Assembly (NCBI GenBank): GCA_963930775.1
Contig: OZ005700.1
Span: forward strand, 8,132,609 to 8,196,608
DNA length: 64,000 nucleotides
Source of the DNA: Cliona cf. orientalis
Lineage: Eukaryota; Porifera; Demospongiae; Clionaida; Clionaidae
Direction of reading: 5' to 3'
Shown here piece after piece: positions 6,487-64,000 of the stretch. Position 1 is the stretch's first letter. Every line of letters begins with the position of its first letter. The translations under genes were made by a program, and so were the position numbers. Below the pieces are notes generated by a model. It was not told the DNA's origin. It did no database searches and saw nothing but the letters and a program-made list of their open reading frames with translations.

Positions 6487-6611
6487 TGCAAGGCGGCTGC
6501 TTGCAAATTGTGTTGGTGTGCATCAATTAGAAATAAAATAGGCGTGGTCTCATTATACATGGTAAGTGGTTTCCTGCCAGGTGACCCAATCGGTACTGTA
6601 CCCTGAAACCA
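6487..6611. promoter_or_regulatory. Short shared upstream region of two divergent genes
   Basis: LRP2BP (-) and the FHA/DUF3626 gene (+) have start codons only 125 bp apart, so both transcription starts must lie here or inside upstream untranslated exons. No TATA box is obvious. A bidirectional promoter is inferred from geometry alone. Confidence 0.5.
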
Positions 6612-27157: not shown

Positions 27158-27893
27158 TGCCAGTCACTTCTTAGTTGCATATGGAATGTAATAAAAACTG
27201 AGTCACATGGAATGAATACAATGACATTGTAATAACTAAGGTGCAATAGTCACTACCCAAAGTTGAATCTTTCTAGACTACTCTACAGCAGAAAGTTCCC
27301 TCCCCCCTTCCCCTGGCCATGGGCTACCTGAAGTAGAAAAATTGGTACCCCCAAATCGGCACTCAGTATGGCAACTGCACTTGGTCCTCCTATTTATATC
27401 TACCTGTACCAGCAAAGCTGCACAACATAAGGATCCAGTAACTAGCCCTGTATGAGTCCACGTGCATCTCTGCTACCTGCCACTGTGCATGTGTTTTCAC
27501 TGTTTTCTTGTAGACCATCACAATTAATGGAGTAAACGAGGCTCAGCAGCCACGCCCCTTCGCAAGCTCATGATGCGACGTATGCAACGGCTTGACATAA
27601 TTATTATCTATACCACCCATCACCCACATAGCGCACGCTAGGTGAGATAGGGTGGTGAAGGCCGGCCCTTTGAGGTACCATAATGGAGTCTTTACTGTGA
27701 TTGGTTAGTATCGCTCACCTTTGTGGCTTGATCACGACTTTGTATGCACAGTACTCTGGCACAGGACGGTACCATGGCATATGCGCATAGGAGAGACGTA
27801 ATAATATTCAAAGCGATTGCCGGAATTTCCTGTCATGCCCATCTATGAGGAGCTACATGAGCTAGCTTTATTTAGAAGGCCTCTAAACCCACT
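27158..27893. other. Region upstream of beta-helix gene copy 1
   Basis: No ORF, RNA gene or long repeat is recognised. It should contain the promoter of the minus-strand gene at 24521-27157. Confidence 0.35.
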
Positions 27894-31598: not shown

Positions 31599-31673
31599 TT
31601 GCCTAGTCTCGCGCGCCAGCCCCTCGCTTTTTACGTAGGAGGGGCTGGCGCGCGAGCTAGACTACCATTTGCC
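31595..31673. mobile_element. 61-bp hairpin insertion with 9-bp target-site duplication at a start codon
   Basis: CCATTTGCC occurs at 31595-31603 and again at 31665-31673. Between them (31604-31664) lies a fold-back sequence whose arms contain CGCGCGCCAGCCCCTC and GAGGGGCTGGCGCGCG around an 11-13 base loop. Both copies of the duplication include CAT, that is, ATG on the minus strand. The inner copy is the start codon of the 28902-31598 gene; the outer copy gives an upstream ATG followed by GTA GTC TAG. Confidence 0.8.
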
Positions 31674-43741: not shown

Positions 43742-46700
43742 ATGGAAGTAGACATTCCCCAAGTTAACGGATTCTCCATTCAACCTCGTACCGCATTCAC
43801 CGAGGGGGACAATCCCGGAGGGAATCATGTCCAGTTCAATTCTATCGCTGAGGTCAAAGTGATCGAGCAGCGTCAGCAGTCGGTGACTGCAGCTCCTCAG
43901 CAGCAGTCTCAGCGCCCCAAGCACAAGGCTCGACGCAGGGCCCGCGTTCCCAAGCTCAATATTGCCGACGGGGAAGATGCCACCACTAATGCTCTTAGTG
44001 GAGAAATCGCTAAACCTCTCTCTCCATCCAAGCTCAAGAAGATGATGGACAAGGATCGCCACTCGCGCACTGGACGCAGGGGCATTCCAAAGAAAGGTAA
44101 AAAAAAAACTTTTTTATCTATACATTGTATGTTGTTGGGCTTTTGTGTACTAAAAATTAATGTGTATGTGTATACAATATCATGTATTCTATTGGGTTTT
44201 GTTTCCCCTGTAAGAGTATGCAGACACGGGGGTTCGAGTAATGCTTCTTGTGGAGCACTTAAATGGTGTGCACTAATGAGGAGGAGGGCAACACAATTTT
44301 TATGTTTTGAGCCTGTTGTCGTTGCAGCTGAAGCTAGCGGGAAGCAATTGTAAAGCCCCTGTAATTTGCTGTGGAGATGTATAGTAAAATAGTACTCCCC
44401 TAGCCCAGCTGGTCTGATGTGTAGTGCATCACCAATAGACATAACACTGACCACACTACACTGGCCCCAAGGTGCCTTCTGATCTCCAGTACACCATCTC
44501 CCTTTTACTATAGACAGTATATAATACAGTTTTGTCCAAAGTGTATATCTCACAATATCAATTTGTCATGCTCCAAGCAACACACACTCACACACAATAG
44601 TAGTGTTTAGGCTGCCAGTTGAAGTATAATATATCCCTATACATTTGTAAGGCGCATAGAGACTTGGCTTTCAGAATCAGTTGTGCAGCTGCCAAATTCC
44701 AGCTCGTGCCCGCACCTGCCATTGGCTGGCTGAGAGGCTGTGTTGTCTTAGCCCAGCATGTGGGCCTCCCTATGTATACTTTTTAAGTAGAGAGGAAACT
44801 ACTTTACACCTTTCTAGGTGCTCATTGGCTAAAAAGTTTGTTTCACTCAGGAGAGGGAGACTGCTAAATCCCATAGCTGATAATTGATGGATAATTATTG
44901 ATGAAAAGGGTTGTTTTGTTCTGGGGTGCTAATTCGATAGGCCAGTATAGTGTGCAGCTGTTCAAGTGGTCAGCAGTTGTGTGGCTAAAGAGAAGACCCC
45001 TGCAATAACTATACTGCATATGCCAACCAAAGCAGGGTCAAAGGTCTGGAATGTTCTAGAAGCTCAGTTATTGCTGGCTCAGCATAAATTGTTAATTACA
45101 CGACCTTGTGCTTGCATTTGCCTGCACAGTTGGGCTAGTAGATTTTTGCACAGCTGGTTATTGTGGGGGCTGGATGATGCAACAGTGCTGTTCTAGCACA
45201 TACCTAGCTGTACTTTGCATGCTTCTTTGCCATAAATGGTGTGTATTAGGATACCATGTGTTCGTTGTTGTATGAGGTGCCTTAGCCTTACAGTACGTGG
45301 AATCATGTGACTTGTAAAGGCCTCGGCACATTTAAGTGGGAGTTGTAATTGGCTTTCAATTCCTTGGGCTTCTAGAAGGTTCTAGAAAATTTCCACATTG
45401 TCCATCTCAATTAGATGATTCTAGAAGGTCTATAGATTGTCCCTGATTAGACCCTACATTCTGCTAACTACCTACCTCACCCTGGCCTATGTATCGCAAC
45501 ACGTACATGCCAAGCAATAATATATACATGTACATAGCGTGAGGTTTTTTAGTCCCAAAAGCTTTGTGCTTTTGACGTGTGCTCCAGCTCAAAAGTTTAC
45601 TACTACTATCTTGGTCAACTATCTCCCTATCAGTCTTGGACATTGGGCAAACGTGTACACAAGCCAAACTAACTAGACCGTGTTAGCTGGTGAGCATGGA
45701 CCATGATAACATGATAAAAGTTTACTACGCTTGTGCGCCCAATCTCTTCAACCACTCTAAACACTGTCCACCACATGTCACCACCTCCATGTACATGTAC
45801 ATGCATGTCAGCTAGGGCTTTTGTTGTTTGTGCATGTGCCGTGAGAAAGGACAAGGCGCGGGTTTATCGCTGGTTGGCCAGTTCACACCCAGTGGTGGTC
45901 GAGTGTGTGGAGTATTTACTCACTAACTTGCCTATTGATGAGATTTCGCGCATTCTTCCCTTTGTCCTTGTGTGTGTGTGTATGTATACCTGTGTGGGTG
46001 TGGAGTACAATAGAGGGTAGAAATAATTGAATAATTAGGCTTGTGTGTGTGCGCGCATGAGAGTAGAGTAGAGTAGAGGAGAGGAGAGGAGAGGAGAGAG
46101 AGAGAGAGAGGGGGGGGGGGGAGGGAGAGTTTGTGTTACTGTGGCATGCTTACTCGGGCTTATGTGCGTGTGTATGCCAAAGTGTATACTATAGTGTGTG
46201 TACATGTGCATGTCATAATATGGACATGCATGTGTATACATCGACGTGTACAAGTGTTGTGTGTATGCTATAGAAATTGATCGACTGTCACGGGACTCTG
46301 TAGATGTGGAGTTACCTTTCAACTTGCCTCGGAAGAATCAACTGTTGAATCATAGCTTTCTGCACAAATATGAGCGTCGATTTCTCAACTGTTGACAGAT
46401 TGACTATATACTCCCCCTGTGTAGACTGGCTGAGCGTGCCGTGATTATAAACTTTGGGGTATCATATTCAATAATTGTCTTCTCTTTTGATCGATTGTCT
46501 AACTAGAATGTGGCCATAGGATTTCAATGTGGGCAAAAAATAGAATCATATCACCTTAAGTAGTTCTAACTAGAGCCGAGTCTCATTTGATTATGGTCTC
46601 AAATCTCTGTATCCCTATGCGCTAGCGTAGACCAAAGAGTGTTAGAATCTATGGCTAGCCACACTTTACTGTGGCATAAATAAATTGAGGGTAGTTTGGT

Positions 46701-49083
46701 TAGGGGGTCTGGGATCATGGCATATGGCGGTGGTGATGCCGAGCACAGCAGCACAGCTGCTGCTCAAGGGAAGCCCGTTGACTTTCACGGTCAGATGCCA
46801 CCACTGTGGGTAAGCCATACAACTCGCTTTGTATGTCACTCTTTGATATTCATGGTTTGTTGTGTTTTGTTGGAATATTAAGTTAGTATTAATTTTAAGG
46901 GGAGGCCCCTGGGGAATTTGTAATTATTAGCCAGCCAGTAGATATATGAGTATGAATTCAGTGTTATCTTTTCTGTGGCTTCACAGCTGTTGTGTTATCT
47001 TAGCCGGCTATAGCTTAATGGAATTCACGAGCGTAATTAAGATTTTTAAACTGCCCAATAGGGTTGCCCTTTTACTCCATAGGCTAGCGTTGCTAGATTC
47101 CTTCAACTGGACTGACAGGTTTGACAAACCGGTTTTCACCACTAATTGATGGTAGTAAACTTTGTCTCCTTGTCCAAATTTGGTTCACCTACAAAATGTA
47201 GCGCTAGCCAGGGCCAACTATCTCTACTGTGCCGTGTGTGTATACTTTGGTGAGAACAAGCGTAATAACACTGGGCTGACCTGTGTATCCTGTATATCTT
47301 GTTGATCAGATCTTATGTTGACAGCTGTGCACTATGTAGCCAGGGCCACTGACTAACCAATAGACCGCCTTGGCGATAAACTATGGACTCGTACGGTAGC
47401 AATTGGATTGGCGTTGAGCAAAAAGAAACAATTATATTTTTTTCTGATCACTAGCTACAATAACAATGCAAGGTACATTACCTCTCCCAGGCCAGTCCCT
47501 GTTTGCAAACTGTTAGCTTAGCAAGCTGAGAACAGCCCTAGCTGGATTGCGCTAACATGGCTAACTAAGGTGGTGTGGCATTCAGAGCATTCACACCACT
47601 ACTGGCTAAATAGGAGTTGGAGTGGCGAGTGGAGTGGAGTGGGGTTGGGGGGGGGGGGGTGGGGGTTGGAAGGCTTCCTTTGTTGCTGTGATTTTGAAAT
47701 TTTGAAATCTTGAAACGATTTCTCACTTGAGCTTAATGGGTGCCAATGTTGACAGTTTATCGATTGGTGTGGCCAGGTGTGTAAGTAAGTGTGAATGTAG
47801 GCAGCATACATAGCAGTGTGTGTGTGTGTGAGATTAGTCTGGCCCTTGTCCTCTCCAGATTATTGACAATAGGGGAGGGGGAGTGGGTCTAGCTGGCCAG
47901 ACTAGTGTGTGATATGACACCATACTACCACCACCTCCACCAATCCAATACCTCAACACCTACATTGTAGTTTTGTGTGTGTGTGTGTGTTGAATGAAAC
48001 ACCCAAACATCTTTGCAGCCATTCACCAACAGCCAAGCCTAATTGGATTTAGTCGGGTCCAACCCTACACTTGCTGCCATCTAATGAGTCTAGATGACGC
48101 CAATATGCTGTCTTTGATCAAGTCTATTGCATTAACCCTAGCCTGGACCTGAATTTCAAACGCATTTTTGATGGTTTTGCATCCATATTAAAAATGTGTA
48201 CTCATCGTCGTTACTAGCATGTGCGTGGCACATGGCAGGCAACCAACCGTATGAGAATGGAACCTTTTATACCGAAAGTGTATACTATTGGTCCATGTAA
48301 ACGAGACGAGCGTAACTCGACTCTAATCTACATGTACGTGTGTACCAACCTACTCTAGTCGCGTCTTATCCTCCCCCTCTAGTGTCGATTCCTTGTCAAC
48401 ATAGTATAGTAGAGTAGCGTACTACTTTGAAAGTATGCTCAGCTGTTGTCCATGTCTTTCTACATGAGTAATACGCCATGTTAATAATTATTGTTTGCTT
48501 AGGTGGTGCTGGTGGTAAGGGTACGTGGGGCAAGCTCACGGACATGTACGATGAGAGTGGACACCTGCACGACTCCAGGGACCCCAACTACGACTCGGCC
48601 GAAGAAGAGGTACGTGGTACAGCCTTTGCTGCCTTTGAGAGAGAGAGAGAGAGAGAGAGAGAGTGTGTGTATGTTGAGACGAACGTTTTGTTAATTTGCA
48701 AGTGTTGAGTAGATTACCACTTGAGATTCCCATGGCAACGTATGTGCACGTTTGTATGTTATATAATGACTGTGGCCAACGCATTGGGTATTAAAGCTTT
48801 TGATGTGCACCTCCATAAACCATTTGGGTCTCGATCAACACAAACTCAAGCTTGTCTTGTCACGTTATTGTGTCCTCCAGGCATCCTACCTAGTGTCCCC
48901 CTCCTCCCCCCACATGGATCTGGATGAGTTCGAGAAGAGAGCTGAGACCATCTTTAAGGAGTATTTTGACCACGGAGACCCTCAGGAGGTGGCTGCTTCT
49001 CTGGAGGAGTTTAATATCAGGAATATCAAACACGAGGTGAGTAGCAACATCAAAATAGATTTTTAAGGGCTCTTTGATAATTA

Positions 49084-49116
<33 letters not shown>

Positions 49117-51435
49117 ATCCTAGATTGTCCGTGTGCTGATCACTGTTGCTCTGGAGGAGAAAGCTGCCAACCGTGAACTGGCCTCGGTGCTTCTCTCCGA
49201 CCTCTTTGGTCATGTGATCAACTACAGGGACTTTGTGATGGGATTCGACACCATTCTCTCCCAGCTTTCCGAGCTCTCTTTGGACACCCCTGACGCTCCT
49301 CACATCGTTGGCAACTTCATTGCCCGCTGCGTGGCAGATGACTGCCTCCCTCCGGCCTATGTCACCAACCATACCGAGGTCACTGACCCCAAGATGATGT
49401 GAGTGGACCCCCATTAAACTGTTGTTCACATTATGGGTGTGTGCTATTAGTGCTGTAGTCGGTAATCATATTAATTGGTTTTCAAATTTGCAATTTGTTT
49501 GTGTATCAAGTTATTGAATTATTGGTGAATAAATTAGTGTTCTCTCTCTCTCTCTCTCCCCCCTCCCTCCAGTGCTGCCCTGAAGCGTGCCCAGCTGCTT
49601 CTGACCATGAAGCATGGTATTGCTCGCCTTGACAACGTGTGGGGTGTTGGCGGTGGTCAGAGGCCAGTCATGTTCATCATTAGCAAGGTAAGCAATGAGC
49701 ACAGTAGTCCTAATAAAAACCTGCACGTATGCAAGTGAGGGGGGGGGGTACGTCGTACAAGCAAGGTGCAGGTAGTGATTCTCTGCTGATAGTTGAAGTC
49801 AGCACTAGCTTGTACTGTGCAGGATGTTTGTTTCCCATCTTTCTCTCAGTTGTATTTTGAAGCCACAAACCACTTTTTAAAAATCAAATTTGAAACAGTG
49901 TGTCATAGTAGTAATTAGTAGTTGTGGTATTCCCAAATTTCCTTCTTTTATTCCTTTTGTTTGTCCACTGGCACATGTGTGTACTGTAAACCAACAAGCA
50001 CCCTTTGTAGAGGAAAGGCTACTAGCAAGGCCTAGGTACTTTTGTGCGTTCCGACATGGCTTGTTTATGCAAAACAAGATAAGCAAAGACATAAAGTTAG
50101 AGAGTTCCGTCCAAGGGACTAGCTTTTGAACATTCCTTCCATCCTTGGCTAGATCCACTACGGTAAGTAGCACAGGTGGATAGGATGCCTGGTGGATGCC
50201 TGGTCATAGTGCACAGTTTGTGTGAAATTAGTCAAATCTCCTTTTAGAATCAAATTTGAATGTTGCTGCTGCATGTGGCTATTTAGCAAGAGAATGATGT
50301 CTAAATTAGGTATTCGTAACTCTCATCTGTTTGGATTTGCCTAATGGACTTCATGCTAATGCTGTTGTGTGCAGTGTGTGCTTGGCTACATATGGCAGTT
50401 TAGCAACCAGGTGGTACCTTCTCCTATAAGCCCTTGATATGGTATTTACCTGGATATAAATTTAAATAACCAACTACAATTGAATTCTCCCCCCCCCCCC
50501 CTCCAGATGAACCTTCTCCTCAAGGAGTACCTGTCCTCTGGTGACTCCGAGGAAGCCGTGCGTTGTCTGCGTGAGCTCGAGGTGCCTCACTTCCACCACG
50601 AGCTAGTCTACGAGGCAGTGGTGCTGGTTCTCGAAGACGGACGAGAGGAGACCGCCAAGAGCATTTGCTCGCTCCTCCGCTACATGGCTGTGACCACTAT
50701 CATAACTCAAGATCAGCTCAACACGGTAAGCAGCATGGACGTTGAATGGCTTAAAAATCATAATACATGTAATACAAACGACTTTACTGTAGGTCATGAA
50801 ATTTTCGAGTTTATCTCTTGATTGAAGTTGATTATCAGCCATAATATTATTATTTTAGCGATTCTCCAAGTGGTAGGGTAAAGTGGTTGTGAGCTGTGAT
50901 AGCGCAGACGAGAATCTTGGTGCCTATTGTTGAGGGGCTTGTTTATGATAATGTATTGTACATGTGTCCCTATGGTAACCACACATGCCACATGTGCACC
51001 ACATGTTGCTGCTCATTGTACGTCCATATCCATAGCCAGGGCCGGCCAGTTGTTGTTTTTGAATAGAGTGATGTAAAAACAGACTTGGTGCCATCAACAA
51101 GATTCGATGGTCTGTTGATAAGTTTTTTTTTTCTTACTTCCCCTGTAGGGCTTCATCCGCGTGTTCAATGACATGACGGACATTGTTCTCGATGCTCCGA
51201 ATGCCTACCATACTCTCAGCAAGTTTGTCGAGAAGGGAATGGAGTCTGGATTTATCACCCAGGTGATCGCTGAGCAGGTCCCTAATAGGTAAGTCAATTC
51301 ATAAAATTAATGATACTTGTAGTATATGTACATTCCTAATCATATCTCCCCTCTCTCTCTCTCTCTCTCTCCAGGGGACGCAAGCGTTATGTCAGTGAGG
51401 GTGATGGTGGTGCTTTCAAGCCCCCCGAGGACTGA
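43742..51435 (+). CDS. PDCD4: Programmed cell death protein 4
   Basis: PDCD4 inhibits translation by binding eIF4A through two MA3 domains. Exons: 43742-44096, 48503-48609, 48881-49036, 49124-49398, 49573-49687, 50507-50725, 51149-51288, 51375-51435 (1428 nt, 475 residues; human 469). The N-terminal 120 residues are basic and low-complexity (KHKARRRARVPK), fitting the RNA-binding region. GIPKKGGAGGKGTWGK is the conserved linker. MA3-1 spans about 160-290 (LDTPDAPHIVGNFIARCVADD). MA3-2 spans about 335-455 (LLKEYLSSGDSEEAVRCLRE, EVPHFHHELVYEAVV). The C-terminus keeps RGRKRYVSEGDGG, including the Ser equivalent to human Ser457 (Akt/S6K site). The human DSGRGDS beta-TrCP degron is not visible. 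Intron 1 is 4.4 kb, the largest gap inside any gene here. Confidence 0.96.
44097..48502 (+). other. 4.4-kb first intron of PDCD4
   Basis: It contains CT/GA- and G-rich simple repeats (46070-46125, 47640-47665), TG runs, and a candidate alternative first exon at 46717-46809. An open frame at 45733-46020 includes a plausible-looking segment (RVYRWLASSHPVVVECVEYL) but has no recognised family and no clean splice context. No RNA gene was recognised. Confidence 0.5.
46717..46809 (+). other. Candidate alternative first exon of PDCD4
   Basis: An ATG-initiated frame of 31 codons (begins MAYGGGDAEHSS, ends QMPPLW) stops exactly at a consensus donor TGG|GTAAGC in phase 0. PDCD4 exon 2 needs phase 1, but exon 3 (48881) is phase 0, so splicing here to exon 3 would give an isoform lacking the basic N-terminal region. 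No transcript evidence is available. Confidence 0.3.
48642..48662. repeat. (GA)n microsatellite in PDCD4 intron 2
   Basis: About ten GA units are followed by a short TG run, directly after the exon 2 donor region. Confidence 0.8.
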
Positions 51436-52079
51436 ACGTCCACGGAATCGAAGCTCTTTGCCCCCCATATTTTTTGTCTATGCCTGCTTAAGTATCATAC
51501 GAATAACACTGTTTACCGTTAAAGACCCTGCCCTGGATACTGGATTGTGTTTAACTAAGGACATTGAACTCTTGAATGTTGTTAGTTAAAATCTCTCTGT
51601 GTGTATAAGCAACTAGTGGAACTCAGCACAGCACAGTACAGCGAAAGCAGTCGGTTGCAAAAAAATTTATTTTTAACGCCACCAGACTGCCTAGCTTCAC
51701 CTGTTCGAACTGTACCCAAAAATGTCGACGATCATTGTTATCTGTATTGTAACATCTCTGTCAGTTTTTTTCCTTTGTCAGTCATGTCATTTTACACTTG
51801 TGGTTTCTTATTGAGCCACTGTATTATATTAAGAAGGAATTACGTCATAATGACACAATTTAACCACTATAGCGCATGCGCAATGGGAGAGGTGACTTCA
51901 GTGCAGTATACATGTAGTACGTGGTGTTTAGGGGTATACCGGGTACTAACCAGCGCAGCGTGCAGTGCAATGACGTAACGAATGAATCTACTTGAAAAAC
52001 GGACCCTACGCAAGCTAGCTATTGCAAGGACCAAAGGTCAGCAGTAGCTGGTCTTTTTTGCGGTTCGAGCTCACAAACC
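51436..52079. other. PDCD4 3' region and upstream region of the next gene
   Basis: About 400 bp of AT-rich presumed 3' untranslated DNA is followed by GC-richer DNA containing GCGCATGCGCA (51873-51883), an NRF1-like palindrome that fits a promoter for the gene starting at 52080. No canonical AATAAA was found for PDCD4. Confidence 0.45.
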
Positions 52080-55000
52080 ATGGGCCTGTTCTTCTCTCGC
52101 CCGACGACCAACCCAGGTAAGAAAGAAAAATAATAATAACTGCATGTGCAAATAATGACTGCAATAATCATCTGCAGGTCCTCGCGAGCCTGACCTGGGT
52201 TGCGGCAGCCTTGAGCTCGATGACAGCGAGCTCGAGCTAGCAACCTCCTACATGGAGGTCACCTACCCTCCTGCACTGCGCGACGTCCGAGTGGTGCCCG
52301 CATCGCCCAACTCATCGTGGTTGAACTTGGTCTTCAACGATCACAAAGATAATCGCAACACGGAGCCACCGAACCAGGGCGTTGAAGGTGAGCCAAAGTG
52401 GCGTGCACATTCCAGCTGATTAGATCAGCTGAGCGCTTAGCTAGATGGTTGCAGGCACTTGTAAGTGTTCATTTAATAGTGTGTATCGTGGTATGCGTGC
52501 GTGCTCATACATGCTTTTTGAGTCAGTGGTGGTGTTGTACTTGCATGCCATTGCAGGTATCTACATGAGCACTAGACTGACACCCAGAACACAGAGAGTT
52601 TCCACTGCACCAGAATCACTGATGCCGCCTCCACAAAACCTGGCTGGATTCACCATGAGTAGTCCTGGTAGGCTACTTAAAAAAATATTTTTAAGTATCA
52701 ATACTGACAGTAATAATAATATTATTACAGTAGTCCTATTTGGCTGAAATATGCTTTGTAGACACATCACAGAATCAGTATAATGATGCTGCATTACCGT
52801 CGGTGTTATGATTACACTTGATTATTGCACAACTGTAGCTCAAAACTCCATACTGACGTTATCCATGGAACAGAGGCGCTCTAGAGGAGTGGCGATTGCT
52901 GACATACTACAACAGCTGATAACGGAGCTAGTGGATACTATCAACCCATCGGAGGCAGCCTACAGTCTCTATGGATTTGGGATCATCAGCGTCAGTGAGC
53001 GTGATGCAGCAACAATGGAGTCCATCGACAGAAAGCAGAGGTCTAACACCCTCATCAAGAATTTGATCATAAAACTGAAGGAGAACCCACATTGGTTCAA
53101 GGATACTTGCAAGGCTCTGGAGAACACTGGAACACAATCAGTTATTGAAAAATTGCGAGGTACGACTGTACTACTAGTAATACAGAGTTGAGTGATCCAT
53201 GCTACTCTAATAATAATATTATTATTGTGACTTTGCATTAAATTCTGGACATGCAGCTATGGTTAAAGAAAAGTCAGATATCATTGACATTGAAGATACA
53301 TCAAAATTCAACTGTGAGCACTCAGTACACTCTTCTTAATAATACTCGAGGTGTTAGCTGTTTACTGCGTGATCTTGTTTGTCTTTGTCTTTAAAACTGT
53401 TTACACTTGCTTCTTAATCTTCCAGTTGATGCTGATAGTCTAACAGGCGAAGGAATACACAGCGGCAGAGCTGCTGATGGTGGTGATGATGATGTAGTGC
53501 TAATGTTTGCCTCTTCCCAGCTGGCGGAGTTGGACCAGGCCTACAAGAGTGGAGGTCAGGATGCAGTCCGGCAGGTCCTTCAAAGCCAGTCCATGGAACA
53601 GGTATATATAATATAGCCATATCAACTATCACTGTCTCCATAATATGCCAATACTAACCTTGATTGTCTCCCACATGGCACCATTCCAGCTTTTCAGTGT
53701 AATAAGTTAGCTTCGTTCTCAGACCCTCCTAAATTTAATTTCAGTGTTGCTCACAGAGAAGCATAATGTATTGAGAAGATTAGGGGGTGTGATGGACAAG
53801 CTAGGCTGCTAATTAGTACATGTGGAGTGATATTATTCTGTTTTTTTTCCATAATTTTATTTACAGAATAATCAGCTTCTTCAAGATGCTTGCAGGGAGG
53901 GAATGGATACATCTATCCTGGAGCTGCTATTGTCTGAGTCTCCCTCCTCGTGTGATGTGAATGGCAGAGACAAGGTACGTACGCTAGTTCTATTGTGATT
54001 GAATACAGTGTGGATAATATAATGATCTTTATCTCTTTTCACAGCATGGTAGAACTTGTCTTCACACAATCTGTGCATCATTTCCAAAGGTATGTACAAT
54101 AATTCTTATTGATCCATATACAAGTTTGTGATGCAAAGATGTGCATGACAAGTTACCTTACTATTATACAGGGCAAAGATGCAGCTATTCGCTTCAGGAC
54201 AGAAGAGCAGCTGATGAAACTATGGAAATTGTTAGATAGTGGTGCAGATTCAAGAATCCAAGACGAGGTAATACTGGCTTATAATTTTAAAGCAATTTCT
54301 GTCATTAAAGCTTGCCTATTGCTTCATAGGACGGAAACACTGCCCTTCATATGGCAATAAGCAGCGGAAATCTGGAGGTATCTAAAGTACTGTTGAAGCA
54401 TACCCCTGACCTTGTCAATATTCAAAACACGGTAATTCAATTGAATTTTAAATGACAAACTGCATTCATTGTTGGTTGTGTACCGATAACAATGCTTTTT
54501 AGGATGGCTTGACCGTCCTCCACATTACTACTATGAATCATCTTCCTGCTCTAACTGCTGAGCTGGTCAAGACAAAGTGCTGCAATCCGTATTTGTATGA
54601 CAAGGTCAGCATAAAACAACAATGAGTTTTGACTATCTTTTCATATACACTATCCATCGTGACAATACACTTTTGCCATTTTAGGAGGAAAAGACCCCCT
54701 TGCACTACGCTTCCTCTTCAGGGATGCTGGACTTGGTGGAGCCATTGGTGGGCAAGAGCCGTAGCACCGATTTTGTCAATGCACCCGACAGCAACGGAGA
54801 TACGGCGCTACACACTGCGGCCGAGAAGGGAGACAAGAAGGTGGTGAAGGTGCTACTGAAGCATGGAGCAGATGATTCGTTGAAAAATAACGTAAGTGGA
54901 TGGTAACTAGATTACTTTTATGTGTACATCTGTTTGGATGTCGGTATAAGCAGAAGTAATGTGGTGTAAGAAGTTTGGGTTTATTAGATTCACAGCATTT

Positions 55001-55616
55001 TTGCAGCTACTTAGCCCAGTAGCATGCCACCTGCATTAGCCATGAATAGCAACCAGGGTACATGTGTCAACTGTTGATAGTGCATGAACATAATTATTAT
55101 GATTGTGCTTGCATACTAAAGTTGCGCATCCTAACCTTATGCCATTGTTCGGCAAGGAAATCCAGACCCCTTCCTCATGGTGAAAGCAGTAGTAGAGTTT
55201 TATAGGCACTATGTGGTCTGTGATTTCACAACAAGCAACCAGCTTCCCTCTTTTTCAAATCTTATATTGGGGCATTTATTATATCCTTATAACCTAATTA
55301 TTAGGGTGATTTCATTTCACTTGAGGTTAGGTGTGTGGTTTTCATAATTATTACACAGAATGATCAGACAGCGTTTGACGTTGCCAGCGATCGGAGAAAC
55401 TACAAGGTCATCAAAGCCCTGCTGAAGAAGAAGTACCCCGTCCGCTGGCGATTCAAGCTCCAGAAACTGAACTCTAAACGAGGATCGAGTATGACCCGCC
55501 TCCCCATGGCCACTAGTCCATCCACTAACAGCGTCAATTCAGACGCCGACTCATCCGTTTGCTCGGAAATCAATGTCACCACTTCTGAGCTAGACCTTGA
55601 TGGTGTCGATGACTGA
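52080..55616 (+). CDS. Putatively N-myristoylated death-fold (CARD-like) and ankyrin repeat protein, copy 1
   Basis: Exons: 52080-52116, 52178-52387, 52557-52667, 52839-53159, 53257-53313, 53426-53601, 53867-53974, 54045-54089, 54172-54267, 54330-54431, 54503-54604, 54685-54891, 55359-55616 (1830 nt, 609 residues). The protein starts MGLFFSRP, which fits the N-myristoylation signal MGxxxS. Residues about 130-226 form a six-helix death-fold-like domain, most like a CARD (LYGFGIISVSERDAA, then KENPHWFKDTCKALENTG). Residues about 305-560 are ankyrin repeats (DGNTALHMAISSGNLEV, NGDTALHTAAEKGDKKVVKV). The tail is Ser/Asp-rich and acidic. The same order is found in the next gene, so they are tandem duplicates. 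Membrane-anchored signalling adaptor is inferred. No orthologous name is justified. Confidence 0.87.
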
Positions 55617-55618
55617 GC

Positions 55619-55624
55619 AATAAA
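55619..55624 (+). terminator. Polyadenylation signal AATAAA
   Basis: AATAAA begins three bases after the stop codon of the first CARD-ankyrin gene. If used, it gives an extremely short 3' UTR; the downstream 700 bp has T-rich DNA where another signal could act. Confidence 0.5.
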
Positions 55625-56369
55625 ACTATTATTATAGTGCTAATTTATTTGTGTGTGTGCCCTTTTTTTGTGTGTGATCATTATTTTTATCACTTGCGAA
55701 TGTTGTTAATTTTAATGTACGTCCTCTGTATACACCTTCACTCCACAAGTTTTATCACACATGACACACTCACATACACTACACACAACATGCAATGCAC
55801 ATGCATCTCCTACTATAATATGTCATACAATAATTTTTCCTAGTCATAGTGTTGTATTTATTTTATTTACGATCATGGAAACTAGATTTTTTTGTAAAAT
55901 GCACCGTCACCTATAGTCACCTTATACTACTCCACAACACACATACATCATTAGTCTTTTTTTCTATTTTAGACGATCATGGCTATTAGCCACAATAATA
56001 ATATTATTTATTTTTGTGCAAAATTCTCGTTTGTATCATTGCTATTTTTTTTATTCATGATGCTCATTTTTGTGTTTTTGGCTTTGTGTCCTCAGCATTG
56101 TATCAGTACTTGCCACAGTCAAATGTTCATGTGCTTTGTCATCTATCAAAGGATAAAGTTTTGAGTGTGTAAGACCAGAATCAGTGCGCATGCGCATATA
56201 GTGCACGGCCACAAAATTAATTTTAGGCAGCCATAGCAGCAAACAGCTGAGCTAAGCGGTGGCAAGCTACATATTAAAAGCAGTTTTTATTGGAGCAAAT
56301 TCCACAAGTGATACACAGCTTATGAGCACGAAATCTCGCTAATTCGTGGAAAGCTGCCGCGGCTAAACA
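55625..56369. other. Spacer between the two CARD-ankyrin genes
   Basis: It is T-rich with no supported ORF. GCGCATGCGCA near 56186 repeats the NRF1-like palindrome found upstream of the previous gene at 51873, suggesting that the promoter was duplicated with the gene. Confidence 0.45.
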
Positions 56370-59300
56370 ATGGGAGTCTTTTTCAGTTGCCGTCCGCAGA
56401 TCATCACCATCCATGACTCCATGGACAGTGAGTCGAAAATATTAATATGTGTGCATACACTGACGTGGTTGTTTGGTTGTGTCCCATAGATCCCCATGAG
56501 CCCAATCTAGACATCTCTATGTTCAATAGCGTTGAAGTGGAGTCGCTCTACGGATCGTGGGCCAATATAAACGTGGAAGATCCTCTCCGCCAATTCGCTC
56601 CAGGTAAACACGTGTATGTGTGTATCAAACTAGTGTGTTCAAATTGTCTCTAAATATATAGCTTGGCAACGCCATCATAAAACAGCTGGTCCAGACCTCG
56701 TGGCTACTAATAGCTAGAGTGTATTTATAATGGCCGTTATGGTTGATTTTGCTAGTGTAAAAATATTCATCGTCAGTGGGGGTATACATGTAGACTTTGC
56801 CTTTGCGACAAAAACAAACCTGTATTGCAGTACTGATTTTATGCAAGTCAGATAACTCAAAATATTGCTCAGCTGAAAGGTCAATAATAATATCCATACT
56901 CACAGACTAGCTACTAGTTGGTTATTTAAATAAAGTGTATAGACAGTTGAATTTACACCTGTGAAGAATGACTGTTTTGTTCACTGAGTTCACTGTAAAT
57001 TTGAATCTGTATACTGATTAGATTGGGTAGTAGGTGCTTTTTTTTGCTACTCTTAAATTCCTCCAAGGTCAGAGAACAAAGACTGTACTGTAAAAATACT
57101 GAAAAGTGTTTATTTCTGGTACACACAGTACACAAACCATTACAGTACATGTATACAGCTGCCAGGGAGTGGGGGGTGGTTCCGCCTGTCATGTTTGTGT
57201 GGTATACCTCTGTGTACACTTGCCTTCCCACCACAGTCTACCCAAGTGCACCACAGACACAGGAACAGGGAGATAAGCTCCCTGTGTGCTTCCTCTGTCC
57301 TACTCACGTTCACCCGCCACAGAAATATTTGCCTTGTTTGATGTGTTCAGGGAGTTGTGCTCTGCCTGCTAAGGCTGTAAATTGCTCAGCTTACAGCTGC
57401 TTCTCTAGAGTGGTTTCTCACAAGTACAATAAAGCAATACCACAGAGTCACAATTGTTTGATGTTGGGTGATCAGTGTCTTATGATGCATGACACGATTG
57501 AGCTGCCACATGGAGAGATAGGGAGCTCACTTGCATATGGAGACCTAGCTTATAATTTATTTGGAGTATGAAAATTGGGATGATATTCACAGCTGTAGTA
57601 GTATAGCCCATGTTTTGTGGGGTTGGCCCCACCAAGAGATTCATAGTGTCCACCTGTTTACCCTCACCGTTTCACCTGGTCCCCAGACGGTGCTACCAAG
57701 GATACGTGCTTGTCCAACAACAGCGGTGAGGAGACGAAGATAGTGGTGTACCCCAACATCAGAGCTAGTCCGACCAAGCAGCTGACGGGGGCTGCCCACG
57801 TCCATGTGAATCACTCTGACGAGGAAAGATCTGCAGCTGGTGCCGGCGCTTTCAATGGTGAAAAGGATGGTAAGTCAATCTCTCTCTTTCTTATTCAGAA
57901 TGTGCATAGTAGTGGAGAGATGGAATGTATGTGGTATGTACATGTATATTGCATAATGACCAAGTAATGTGAATTGTATTGTGTTTGTGTGCTGAGTGAG
58001 TGTGTGTGTGTGTGTGTGTGTGTGCTGAGTGTGTGCATGTGTGGCTAGCTGCTGCACTCACTCGCGCATGTACTCATTATAGTACGCATGCACACGCAGT
58101 CAGTGGCCCACCACACCTGGCTTTCAAATCCAGCATAGGGTAGGGAGAGGGGGAGTGCAGCTAGTGCACAGCAGTTGCAGTATGCATTGTTCTTCACGCT
58201 TCATCATTGTTTGTTCTTAATCAGATGAACCTGTCAACAGGGAGTACGGTAAACGTGAGTGAGTGAGTGAGTGCAGCGCTAGCAAGAGAGACTGCGAAAC
58301 AATTTATGAATCAGCTTCAGGCTTTAAAGGCACTGCTTATCAAAACACAGCTGATGCTCAAGGAGATAGCTCGTGTTTTCCTCAAAGGTTGCCTGCCTGC
58401 CTGCACATGACATGCACATGCTCGTTTGGGTATTGTATGGATAAATTATGTAGTTGGTATGACCTGAATGTTTGAGTTTATTATTGGATAATACTATAGG
58501 AGCACCCTCTCCCCCAGCAGTGACAATAGTAATTATTAAATGCAGCTACTCATTTGGTTCATCACATGGCATTTCACACTGGAATGTTGTGTACTCACCT
58601 ACTCAGTGGATTGAAGTATTTTGTGGTGCCTTTGATTACAAGTGTGATGGTTTAAAAAATTCCTTTCTTTTGCACATGTACCTGTAGAATCCTTTTATAC
58701 ACCCGCGGCCACATCGACCACCTACCTCAATGCTGAGACTCTGCAGCTGCTAGATGAGCCTGCGGAATCAATTCACAAGAGAAAACAACACGCTGGATCG
58801 ATCATTGCAGACGCCATCCAGCGCCAGTTGAAGACCCTCTTGGAGCAGGTGGACCCAGAGGAGGTGGCAACACAGCTGTTTGGTGTCGGCATCATTAGTA
58901 AGATTGACCTGGAAAATGCCAGCAACAAGGCTCGGGACAGAGGGGACAGAGCCAATAGGCTCCTCTTGCTTCTAATCGGGAAGCTAAGAGGCAACCCTCA
59001 CTGGTTCGATGAAACTTGCATTGCTCTTGATAAAGCCGGAGTGCCAGCTGTACAGGAAGTTAGAGGTATTTGGGATAGTTTGTTAGTTATGAGTCATTTA
59101 GACTTCAGTATCTCCCCAAGCAAATGGGCATAATGGGAGCCAGGGGCTGAGGCCGTATCAGAGCTTTTGGATTGTTCTACCCAACTAGGTTTTCAATTTT
59201 CAATGTAATATTGAATCGAAAATCTCCACTTTCTGCATTTGAACTGTTAAAAGGGACCTATACACCACATGTATGCTGGGGAGAACCCTGTATTATGTAT

Positions 59301-62300
59301 ATATTTTTCAATTTCCTATCCCTACAGCTCTAGTAATGAGGAGGTGTCCCGAGGATGTTCTCTCCATCGGTACGAGCACCTACCAGACGTGTCCGTCAGA
59401 GCTAGGAGGAAGCATCAACTCCGGGTTCTACAGCCTTGGCAGTGCTATCAGCTCCAAAAGGCTCCATACCATCGCCCACGACTATGATCCCCAGCCACCT
59501 GCTGCCCTACCCCCACAACCTCCCCCTCCAATGTGTAAGCCACTAGCTATTCATTGGGAATCAGGGAAACTCATAAAATCTTGTAGCCTTTCCCAAAGGT
59601 ATTTCTGACTAGTAAAGGGAACAACGGCAAAATCGGCTATATACTCAGGCCTGGGGAAGGCAATTGGCTAAAATCCTTGGGAATTTAAGTGTTTTTGTGA
59701 TTTTTTTTTTTTTAGTTGAATTGGCTGTTGAATCATCTGGAGAGGAGGAATCGTCTGTGACAGTAAGTAAAATTAACTGATGGCTATATGCAGTGATTAT
59801 TATTTATCTCTCTCTCTCCTTTCCCTCCCTCCCTCCCTCTAGGTGACAAGGCTTGAATCAGTCTACAAGCTGGAGGGTCTTGCTCGAGCTAGAAGCCTTC
59901 TAGTTAGACAGTCTTCTACTGAACAGGTACAGTGCATACTCCACGGCAAGCATCCTGAAACAATAATAGTACTCATCCCCTTTCTGTCTTCTCCCCCCTG
60001 CTTGATACATACCCCAGAGTAACCTTTTACACGGAGCTTGCAGAGCTGAGGTGGACCCGGCTGTGCTAAATCTACTCATCACCGAGTGCCCTAGGTCTGA
60101 TTTGAATTCTACCGATAAGGTGAGTTTACATCCATGGCATTGTCGACGTCAACTCTGAAGGGCATAAAACTACAACTTTTATACTATTTTACCCCATTCT
60201 ACCAACTTTCCTCCAGCGTGGCCGGACTCCTCTCCACATTGCCTGTGCAGCCATACGGCCATGTATGAATGACATGCAAGCAAGCCTCAACCCGGTATAT
60301 ATATACAGCACACAATACACAATAGAACACTTGTATAAGAACAAATACGGGCGGTACCATTGTATGTATTCCGACTAATTGGAGACAGCTGTCAAATTTG
60401 TTCCTCCTATTTTAGGGCTCCGTGCTGCATATCAAAGAGCAGCTTATGAAAATTGAGAGTCTGCTTTCTAGTGGAGCCAACTCCACCTTGCAGGATGAGG
60501 TGAGCATAGAAGCAATAATATAATTATTATTATGTACGAGTGGGATTTGCTCCTTTTTACATTTTACCTCCTGCTCTTGACCTGGTATGTTGCCAGTCAA
60601 AAATAGCTTACATCAAGGGCTTATAGACTCCTAATATGCAGTGTACTGGCAATGTACAAACTGCATCGGTAATCACTGTTTGTCGATATCATGACTAGGA
60701 CGGGAACACGCCTCTCCATCTTGCTGCTCTGAGGAGGAACGCCGATGCTGTGAAGGTGCTTCTCAAATTCAATACTAGCTCCATCAACTGCCAGAATAAG
60801 GTGAATGGTGGCATATTATTGTGTGAATGTATGTCCCCTTCCCCCGCCCACAGATAAAACACAGTTGCAGCTGGCCTACTTTTTATCACTCCACAATCAG
60901 TGTTTTTGTGTAGTGTAGTATAATAATATTAGTATTATACTCGTGATCGTCATGATGCTCACTAATTTCGTTTCACTTCAGCTCGGGAACACAGCCCTAC
61001 ACATTGCCTGCAGAGATGGGCTGGTGGAGATTGTTCAGCAATTGTGCACCCACAAAGCCGACACTGCCCTCCAGAACAACCAGGTGTGTGTGTGTGTGTG
61101 TGTGTGTGGACAATGATAATGCATAAAATAACCCACAGCACTGTTGGTGCAATTACCATTATTATGACCTCACTGCAACTATCTTATTCTTGTATTGGGC
61201 CACTCTTAAAACAAAAGTTGTTGGTATCATTAATATTTTTGTATGCTTGGTGTTGCTCATCAATCTTATCACTTCAACTCCGATATTTGACCCTGCAGAA
61301 GGGGCGTACCCCACTGCACCTCGCCTGTGTCGGTGAGCATGTGGAGGCGGCCAAGTGTGTGGCTATCTACGACCCTAGCTCACTCCATGGAATTGACAAG
61401 GTGAGCAAACCATGAGTAGGAACTAACAGGTATGCACTGAGAACAAAGACTTATGTGATTGTCTGTACGTGTATGTTTGTGTGTGTTCACAGAGCCACAG
61501 GACGGCCTTGCATATCGCATGCAAGAGGCATGTTCCCTCGCTGACAGAAGAGCTGGTTCGATGCAAAAGCTGCGTCCCCTACAAAGTAGATCAGGTACAT
61601 CATTTAACTGGCTTACTAACTCACAACAGTTTTGTACTCTAGCAAGCTACCAAAGTGATAGTGTACAGAATCATTATACAAATTTTTTATGGGATTTTGT
61701 TTTTCGTTTTTGTGCAGGATCTTAAGACTCCATTGCACTACGCCTGTTACTGGGGTAACCCTGACCTTGTGACCCCTCTCCTGGACAGGAACCACGGGAA
61801 AGCGTTTGTGGACGCCCAGGACAGGAACGGAGACACCGCCCTCCACATTGCCAGTCGCCACGGACACAGGAAAGTCATCAAGGAGCTCCAGAGACGAAAA
61901 GCCAACCAACACATCCAGAATCATGTAAATTCCCCAATTATTAACAGTTTTGCTGGTGCTCGATCATTGCTACTCTTCTGCCTCCATGCAGACTGAATGA
62001 TATTAGTGCACTATTTTTTCTTTAAAATTGCACTAAAATTTATCTTAAAATTTTTGTGCTCTCTGTGTGGAGTGGTCTTCCATTTAAATTTCATGTTCAA
62101 CTATTGCATTTCCCTTGCAGGCTGGAAAGACTCCTGCTGAGCTAGCTGTGGAGGGAGAGAACGACCTGGCGGCGAAGATGCTGCTCAAGAAAGACAACGT
62201 TCTCTCGTGGCGAGAGAAGCTGAAGACGCTGCAGGAGAACACCAACCCTAGCCCCGCCTCTTTCCGGTCGTCCATGAGCTCCATCATCTCTCAGATGTCA

Positions 62301-62381
62301 GTCGTGCTCATCTCTTCCGACGAAGAGACAGATGATGAGACTTTCTTTCAAACTGAGGATCCAGATGATTCAGATTATTGA
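56370..62381 (+). CDS. Putatively N-myristoylated death-fold (CARD-like) and ankyrin repeat protein, copy 2
   Basis: Exons: 56370-56427, 56490-56603, 57687-57869, 58225-58248 (24-nt microexon), 58688-59065, 59328-59534, 59716-59762, 59843-59926, 60018-60119, 60217-60294, 60416-60499, 60699-60800, 60982-61083, 61299-61400, 61493-61594, 61718-61924, 62121-62381 (2235 nt, 744 residues). It begins MGVFFSCRP, again an MGxxxS myristoylation-type start with a Cys that could be palmitoylated. The death-fold (about 165-250: LFGVGIISKIDLENA, RGNPHWFDETCIALDKAG) aligns with that of the previous gene. A Pro-rich linker ends in LPPQPPPPM. Ankyrin repeats run from about 338 to 690 (GNTPLHLAALRRNADAVKVL, GRTPLHLACVGEHVEAAKC). 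The tail is acidic (SSDEETDDETFFQTEDPDD). Five ankyrin exons are exactly 102 nt in phase 0. A possible extra Cys-rich exon lies at 57237-57467. Confidence 0.87.
57237..57467 (+). other. Candidate cassette exon encoding a Cys-rich segment
   Basis: This sits in the 1.1-kb intron between exons 2 and 3 of the copy 2 CARD-ankyrin gene. It has a CCCACCACAG acceptor, a TTGG|GTGATC donor and 231 nt that enter and leave in phase 1, exactly as required. The frame is part of a 182-codon open stretch. It encodes a segment with VCFLC, CLMCSGSC and further Cys residues that could bind zinc. No family is recognised; inclusion in transcripts is unproven. Confidence 0.4.
57993..58026. repeat. (TG)n microsatellite
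   Basis: TG units in the intron after exon 3 of the copy 2 CARD-ankyrin gene. A similar TG run follows the donor at 61083. Confidence 0.8.
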
Positions 62382-62705
62382 TGCTTCCTAGGATTTATTT
62401 TTTTGTATGACACTACTATTATTTAAGTGTGTGAAAATCATAACTGCTACAATATTAAATTTTTGATGCTGGTAACACTCATAATATTATATCTATCATT
62501 TTTTGATACTGGTGATCTACTAGATTATGATTATTTTATGCTAGGGAAATTTTATTCTCTTATGGTATTTGTTCTTTATGTCTGTGGTGCGTTTTTGTTT
62601 TTATGTGGGGTGTACAGGTATTTCGCAATACAATTCTGCACACATCAAAGTCGCGCGTGCCTTTTATTAGCGTGTATAAGAATTGATAATCTCTAGCCAG
62701 ATCAG
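62382..62705. other. Spacer between the second and third genes of the cluster
   Basis: A T-rich 324-bp stretch without a supported ORF. A variant ATTAAA signal occurs at 62454-62459. Confidence 0.4.
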
Positions 62706-64000
62706 ATGGGGAACGCCACCTCAAAGCATGATGGTAAGTGGATCTAAGACTCATTTATTAACGCATGATCAGTGTACGTGTAGAGTAGATCTACCAGTGT
62801 TGTATTATTGCAATTGTCCAGAGGGCCGCGCTGGAGGAAGAAAACGCGACTCACTTACTCGCAGCATCTTCTATGGAACCAGCATTGTCTCCGAAGGTAA
62901 TAACCATTGGCATGCTGGTATCTAGCTGGAGTTTATTGCCATGTCTACATGCAGCAATTCCGATAGACTCTGATAAGAGTGTGAAACTGTCTGAAGTGCG
63001 CAGTTCATCAGTGGACTCAACCTGTGTAGATGTCTCCCTCCCATTTCTGAATGAGCCTGAGCCTATTGATAGCAGCAATGAGCAATCACCATCCCCTGAG
63101 TCCGATGCCCAGAAAACTTTCAAGTTTGACGAAGAAGAGAATTTCGATTCAGATGACAATGAAGTTGATCCTGAACTCAACATGATGCAGATTCTTCACG
63201 CCGAAAGTCCACAGCAGTCGTTACTAGTGTCTGTTCCAGATAGATGTGACTTGCATAGGGCTCCATCGTGCTTACCAGACGTAGACGATGGTGATACTAA
63301 CTCACTCTCAGATAAAGAGAGCTGCTGCTCCGGCCAAACCAGAGAAGATGTGACGGATACGGAGTGGCAGATGTCAGAAGAAGATGAAGGAAGTGATACC
63401 ACTGATTTTGGTTTACTAGATGAGGAGAAGAAAGCTGCGCTAGCTGTTCAACCAAGCAACGAACCGAGTGATACTGACGGCTGTACACATTGTGAGGTGT
63501 ACACAGTGACTTTTGGAGGCATGCATACTTATACTGCCACGCCTTCTACTGAGGTTGATGATAATGGAAAACTAGATAATGAAGAGGAAGAGAAAGTGGA
63601 CTTGAAGCAACCAGACCAAGATATAGATGTTCAGCTGGCTAGTAAAGCGGCTGGTGGCACACCTTATGAAGTCTACACAATGAATTTTGGAGGTCTGTAC
63701 ACCTTTACCACTGCTACTAGTGATGCTAGTACCGAGGACAAGGAGAAATCAAATCAAACCGAAGAGCCACCATCGGAAAGAGAAGAGAGCAGCTTGGTAG
63801 AATCTGATCCTGCCGAGGGCGAGATAGAGGCACAATCTGAGCCTGCCACACCTTATGAGGTGTACAAAGTGAGTTTTGGAGGCTTGCACACTTTCACTAC
63901 TACTCCTATCAGTGATGGAGCTGGAGGTGAAGCTTTTAAAGTGGACAAAGACTGCAGCCAAACCATGGATGGCCGTGACATCTACACACCTTATGAGGTG
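62706..64000 (+). CDS. Putatively N-myristoylated acidic protein with PYEVY/FGGLxTFT repeats (partial)
   Basis: Exons: 62706-62733, 62822-62896 and 62955 to beyond the window end. It begins MGNATSKHD, an N-myristoylation-type MGxxxS start like its two upstream neighbours; the short first exon ending in phase 1 is also the same plan. Exon 3 is open to the window edge (over 348 codons) and strongly acidic and Ser-rich. It contains a recurring module of 16-18 residues, at about 63484 (CEVYTVTFGGMHTYTATP), 63658 (TPYEVYTMNFGGLYTFTTAT), 63847 (TPYEVYKVSFGGLHTFTTTP) and a fourth starting at 63985. Acidic linkers of about 40 residues separate the modules. No known domain is recognised. Regular Tyr residues could be phosphorylation or docking sites, which is speculation. 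Whether it has a death-fold or ankyrin part downstream cannot be seen. Confidence 0.8.

Follow-up and report, generated by a model that had tools for sequence, protein, structure and literature searches.

Predicted CARD-ankyrin genes with MGxxxS starts in the sponge Cliona cf. orientalis

A 64,000-nucleotide stretch of the Cliona cf. orientalis genome (the window; bases 8132609-8196608 of contig C12, within 216.8 Mb of searched sequence) carries three consecutive same-strand genes, designated g1, g2, and g3, that start MGLFFS, MGVFFS, and MGNATS. g1 and g2 combine this start with a linker, a predicted CARD-type death fold, a run of ankyrin repeats, and a C-terminal tail, an order that recurs in a relative on contig C1, designated gA. 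The coordinates of the cluster and of its relatives are collected in Table 1.

The three gene models were spliced by hand from reading frame and splice sites. All modelled introns are of the GT...AG type, the g1 and g2 products are in frame without internal stops, and g3, likewise open and in frame, was completed by reading the adjoining sequence past position 64000. These models bear out the original prediction of three same-strand genes with short first exons (37, 58, and 28 nucleotides in g1, g2, and g3, respectively), each ending in phase 1. In-frame stops lie upstream of the three ATGs at -87, -6, and -12, with no in-frame ATG in between. The g1 and g2 products align with 32% identity over 609 columns (blastp, g1 residues 65-561, E 5e-70), and a second, lower-scoring alignment begins at residue 1 of both; this homology supports the proposed duplication of the pair. 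Between the start and the CARD, the similarity consists of MG[LV]FFS...RP and [RH]EP[DN]L. The exons of this section, for which reading frame, splice junctions, and the partial likeness of g1 to g2 are the main support, are the least certain part of the models.

Table 1. Features of the cluster (window positions) and genome matches to the g2 CARD (contig positions); aa, amino acids
Feature	Position	Strand	Description
g1	52080..55616	+	13 exons, 609 aa; MGLFFSRP start, CARD-fold domain (predicted), 7 ankyrin repeats (hand count), Ser/Thr-rich tail
g1 first exon	52080..52116	+	MGLFFS start
g1 CARD-fold domain, residues 129-226	52862..53158	+	Inside single exon 52839-53159; AlphaFold and fold matches
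g1 ankyrin-repeat region	53867..55436	+	Exons 7 to 13; Pfam Ank_2 3.1e-35
g1 C-terminal Ser/Thr-rich tail	55437..55613	+	gA-like motif
g2	56370..62381	+	17 exons, 744 aa; MGVFFSCR start, CARD-fold domain (predicted), 9 ankyrin repeats (hand count), acidic Ser/Thr-rich tail
g2 first exon	56370..56427	+	MGVFFS start with Cys7
g2 CARD-fold domain, residues 158-252	58762..59064	+	Inside single exon 58688-59065; AlphaFold and fold matches
g2 ankyrin-repeat region	60018..62198	+	Exons 9 to 17; Pfam Ank_2 8.1e-46
g2 acidic, Ser/Thr-rich tail	62199..62378	+	Residue counts
g3	62706..64000, plus 90 bases beyond position 64000	+	3 exons, 412 aa; MGNATSK start, basic stretch, acidic body, four 16-residue repeats
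g2 CARD match (gA)	C1:1926961		E 5.8e-7
g2 CARD match (copy B)	C1:1955858		E 0.0016
g2 CARD match	C12:330524		E 0.007
g2 CARD match (site of the CARD-like pieces of copy D)	C1:2363216		E 0.20
g2 CARD match	C6:11062029		E 0.27

A predicted CARD ahead of ankyrin repeats

The death fold that had been called in g1 and g2 is borne out by AlphaFold models (mean predicted local distance difference test scores of 86.6 and 80.3, respectively), on which it is of CARD type. Both predicted domains superpose best on the CARDs of MDA5/RIG-I, Apaf-1, and CARMA1. Among the fold matches, CARDs or CARD proteins account for 32 of the first 33 rows for g1 and for all of the first 25 rows (of 50) for g2, with Foldseek E-values that are weak for both models. 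The structural alignments cover a helical bundle of 84-97 residues at about 12-23% identity. A kinked or split helix 1 is a feature of CARDs; the helix is split in the g1 model (residues 2-18 and 20-26) and continuous in that of g2 (residues 2-27). A fold of the death domain type was rejected because, for each of the two models, death domains rank below CARDs. The likeness to Apaf-1, MDA5/RIG-I, and CARMA1 lies in the predicted fold, while the partner domains of those proteins are other than those in g1 and g2.

Full-length Pfam scans of g1 and g2 returned no death-fold match, and the isolated g2 domain scores 15.4 bits (E 0.02) against the Pfam CARD model PF00619, under its curated cut-off of 23.9 bits. 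When Pfam CARD models were run on the CARDs of g1, g2, and gA, two of the three matched at E <= 10 (best E 0.0033). None of these genes is among the 84 matches to Pfam CARD in the genome, and searches of PDB sequences with the CARD domain returned no CARD.

The ankyrin repeats proposed for the two genes are confirmed by Pfam Ank_2, and Pfam ankyrin models score above cut-off in g1, g2, and gA, the last of which has about 6 repeats by hand count. All ankyrin exons, 7 in g1 and 9 in g2, are in phase 0. One-repeat exons of 102 nucleotides make up 2 of the 7 and 5 of the 9, and each gene has a 207-nucleotide exon carrying two repeats. The second repeat of the run is divided over two exons. The acidic tail that the genes were thought to share fits g2 best (13 D/E and 4 K/R in 60 residues); the tail of g1 is weakly acidic overall (8 D/E and 7 K/R in 59), and that of gA is basic (2 D/E and 14 K/R in 65).

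Relatives in the genome and the third gene

A genome search with the g2 CARD gave seven matches at E <= 1, including g2 and g1 themselves. The best of the others, gA (in C1:1921535-1931791), has ten exons and 603 aa, and its CARD is followed by ankyrin repeats. In the Ser-rich tail that comes next, STNSVSS...SSTCSEI is similar to the STNSVNS...SSVCSEI of g1. The first exon of gA, 517 nucleotides long, starts MGNWVSKREDG, ends in phase 1, and joins the CARD exon in phase over a 4.9 kb intron; searched against the genome, this exon matched nothing but itself. CARD identities are 38/90 for g1-g2, 32/91 for g1-gA, and 28/90 for g2-gA, and those in a 100-residue ankyrin block are 48, 47, and 43, respectively. 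In the ankyrin block, g1 is hardly closer to g2 than to gA, and by the identities in both domains the tandem pair is old.

Two further copies on C1 look broken or degraded. The CARD exon of copy B is frame-broken and its ankyrin similarity shifts frame. Copy D (about 2375440-2379140, in the region C1:2363200-2379140) retains ankyrin exons and a tail, and fragments resembling a CARD are spread over several frames on the opposite strand about 12 kb upstream. In the 20 kb surrounding the match at 330 kb of C12, the single match to g1 is weak (E 0.046) and located in the linker, so that this site is at most a putative member of the family. No second CARD-ankyrin family turned up in the genome when the 84 Pfam-CARD matches were compared with 125 listed ankyrin positions, as all 84 are more than 69 kb away from any of them; the list is incomplete, and dense clusters are represented in it by some of their members. 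A scan of prokaryotic and viral contigs with an alignment of the three CARDs gave 137 and 105 pattern matches, respectively, none of which was confirmed by tblastn; this result says little about animals. As a separate observation, 11 of the 84 Pfam-CARD matches cluster within about 62 kb on C11 (9070248-9132379), some 6 kb from matches to the NMT family at 9062658-9063908.

The third gene had been placed in the same duplication series, with subsequent C-terminal diversification. This is unsupported, as g3 has only the MGxxxS start in common with g1 and g2, and its status as a demonstrated paralogue was rejected: blastp against g1 and g2 gave nothing meaningful (one 13-column match at E 6.8), a Pfam scan gave no family at E <= 1, and a genome search returned g3 itself as the single match. 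The product is acidic (88 D/E and 28 K/R in 412 residues). The different repeat module ascribed to it consists of four short motifs of 16 residues (at residues 213, 271, 334, and 380). The four copies of the motif, (P/H)(Y/C)EV(Y/H)..xFGG.(H/Y)T(Y/F)T, lie in window positions 62955-64000 and the adjoining sequence and have no Pfam match. The 13 residues after the initiator Met of g3 resemble those of gA with a value of 0.0017 in a shuffle test, a resemblance that is suggestive only. Because both proteins fit the same consensus, the test cannot tell descent from convergence, and lipidated proteins can acquire an MGxxxS start independently.

The MGxxxS start and a possible role at the membrane

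Although the architecture was at first not recognized, CARD and ankyrin repeats have already been described together in vertebrate Caiap. According to its published description, Caiap has 16 ankyrin repeats, a two-exon gene, and a length of 744 aa in zebrafish; its CARD self-oligomerizes, its ankyrin repeats bind active caspase, and the authors found no invertebrate orthologue (PMC5662874). The word "myristoyl" is absent from the main text of that study. Compared by description, Caiap resembles g1, g2, and gA in having the CARD N-terminal to the ankyrin run and in its similar total length (the identical 744 aa of g2 are a coincidence). It differs in its repeat number, its two exons, and the lack of any mentioned lipid start, whereas the sponge genes have 6-9 repeats, 10-17 exons, an MGxxxS start, and a linker of 128-180 residues ahead of the CARD.

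A literature search on CARD-ankyrin phrases returned Caiap alone, and titles and abstract starts among the matches listed from the open-licence literature name neither a CARD-ankyrin protein from a sponge nor any CARD protein that is lipidated. The immune repertoire of Dysidea avara includes 39 CARD genes, with CARD discussed in NLRs and the word "ankyrin" absent from the main text (PMC12909245), and in a sponge expression study the genes responding to microbial signals include one with a CARD and, as separate entries, others with ankyrin repeats (PMC6208332). The combination itself is already known; the traits that differ from Caiap are (i) the predicted lipid anchor, (ii) the long linker, (iii) the smaller repeat number, (iv) the many exons, and (v) the sponge host, of which (i), (iii), and (v) count as new.

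We give an even chance to the reading that g1, g2, and gA form a sponge family of peripheral-membrane (lipid-anchored) CARD-ankyrin adaptors. The starts of g1, g2, g3, and gA all fit the N-myristoylation pattern M-G-{EDRKHPFYW}-x-x-[STAGCN]-{P} (PROSITE PS00008), each with Ser6 (by script; gA also by reading). Residue 7 is Cys in g2 and Lys in gA and g3, and in g3 a basic stretch, RAGGRKR, follows; such residues and stretches are of a type that acts as a second signal in myristoylated proteins. The genome has two NMT-family matches on C11, with E-values of 1e-28 and 2e-26; the frame of the first contains one TGA. Judged from sequence, N-myristoylation and nucleation of assemblies at the membrane are plausible proposals.

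Should the start be incidental and lipidation not occur, these proteins would be cytosolic caspase or inflammasome adaptors in the manner of Caiap, which operates without a reported lipid anchor (PMC5662874, main text). The weak excess of the start motif in the window favours this reading. Among 2626 window ATGs on both strands, taken with the 90 nucleotides that follow, 12 fit the motif MG{not EDRKHPFYW}xx[ST]{not P} and 231 have a phase-1 donor-like site before a stop; 3 show both features, compared with about 1.06 expected if the two are independent. An excess of this size makes the count weak evidence, and the notion that it is striking by itself was rejected. Stronger evidence is that these 3 are exactly the three gene starts and that gA retains MGNWVSK and a phase-1 first exon even though its CARD is about one third identical to those of g1 and g2 and the remaining N-terminal linker is hardly alignable. 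Because this apparently intact gene keeps both start and junction, the MGxxxS start is common to the family, and its proposal as a shared feature holds for the three apparently intact members, g1, g2, and gA. Together with Cys7 of g2 and Lys7 of gA beside the motif, this retention supports a lipid-anchored adaptor and makes a purely cytosolic one unlikely, though not negligible.

In a lipid-anchored family, a sponge NMT would myristoylate the N-terminal glycine, and the second signal (Cys7 in g2, Lys7 in gA) would help to hold the protein at the membrane, as the consensus and its conservation suggest. The linker, whose composition can be read directly, is probably flexible and would let the CARD project from the membrane. 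The CARD could then self-assemble or recruit other CARD-bearing proteins, for instance caspases, Apaf-1-like proteins, or NLRs, while the ankyrin repeats may bind a cargo or trigger protein. The Ser/Thr-rich tail, with its motif similar in g1 and gA, may serve as a phosphorylation-tunable peptide. Overall, the protein would work as Caiap does, with an oligomerizing CARD and an ankyrin region that holds the client, and would be pinned to the membrane by myristate as is TRAM (TICAM2), for which mutations abolishing myristoylation are described as inhibiting TRIF signalling (PMC10014160). The analogy is one of layout only, in that an N-myristoylated adaptor brings a domain for homotypic assembly to a membrane. 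TRAM has a TIR domain rather than a CARD and is not known to contain ankyrin repeats.

More tentatively, such adaptors may nucleate CARD assemblies on membranes and represent a pre-bilaterian counterpart of Caiap that is bound to the membrane; g3, a putatively lipid-anchored acidic repeat protein, would be a possible partner. How early animals positioned death-fold signalling within the cell is poorly known. If the proposal is correct, it would suggest repeated origins, or a much earlier origin, of the CARD-ankyrin layout, whose description in vertebrates came without invertebrate orthologues. It would also suggest that the lipid anchoring of homotypic-assembly adaptors, as with TRAM, extends to CARDs.

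The direction of effect could also be the reverse, with a membrane-tethered CARD decoy or cap blocking assemblies as ICEBERG, INCA, or ARC do and the ankyrin region lending specificity. ICEBERG and ARC occur among the fold matches, and Caiap has been likened to INCA and ICEBERG (PMC5662874, main text). The sequences of the sponge genes bear no mark of inhibition over nucleation. ICEBERG, INCA, and ARC are, moreover, small proteins not known to carry ankyrin repeats, and a decoy has a slim chance.

A regulator resembling Ikappa-B or the NF-kappa-B precursors, in which a Rel protein binds to the ankyrin repeats and tail and is localized through the CARD or the lipid part, would suit the six to nine repeats and the Ser/Thr-rich tail, acidic in g2; Rel-homology exons occur on C19 (three matches). 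The precursors p100 and p105, however, carry an N-terminal Rel homology domain, and at E <= 1 neither g1 nor g2 has a Pfam match to one. DSGxxS does not occur ahead of the CARD by reading, the DSGADS of g1 being within an ankyrin repeat, and the solved sequences closest to the g1 ankyrin region are generic (ankyrin-1, NOMPC, and designed repeats among the best 60 of 343), which leaves this reading highly improbable. An ankyrin-like linker of cytoskeleton and membrane proteins, with a structural death fold devoid of a signalling role, is just as improbable: Ankyrin-1/2/3, among other proteins, also pair ankyrin repeats with a death-fold domain, but theirs is a C-terminal death domain after ZU5/UPA, whereas the CARD-fold domain of g1 and g2 precedes the repeats, many CARD entries outrank ankyrin death domains for both models, and neither gene has a Pfam match to ZU5, UPA, or Death at E <= 1.

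Neighbouring genes

Upstream of the cluster, an open reading frame (ORF) at 50438-50821 encodes an MA3 domain (E 2.2e-15) and is PDCD4-like by reading. Downstream of g3, past the window, two exons, one matching BRCT (E 1.9e-6) and the other a DNA polymerase beta-type palm (E 2e-23), together read as a polymerase lambda-like gene. No Rfam RNA reaches the gathering threshold in window positions 44000-64000.

Farther upstream in the window, an FHA-domain ORF (6585-7235, + strand) precedes an ORF in which Cys/His motifs of the CPxC type recur (7294-8298). An RNB ORF of 1252 aa (15422-19180, - strand) and an AAA_11 helicase ORF (19917-20936, - strand) read as a HELZ2-like helicase-RNase. Two adjoining ORFs of 880 and 919 aa (24521-27163 and 28902-31661, both - strand) match Pfam Beta_helix and Chlam_PMP repeats and are evidently paralogues; by reading, both begin with hydrophobic residues and have a membrane-like stretch at the C terminus.

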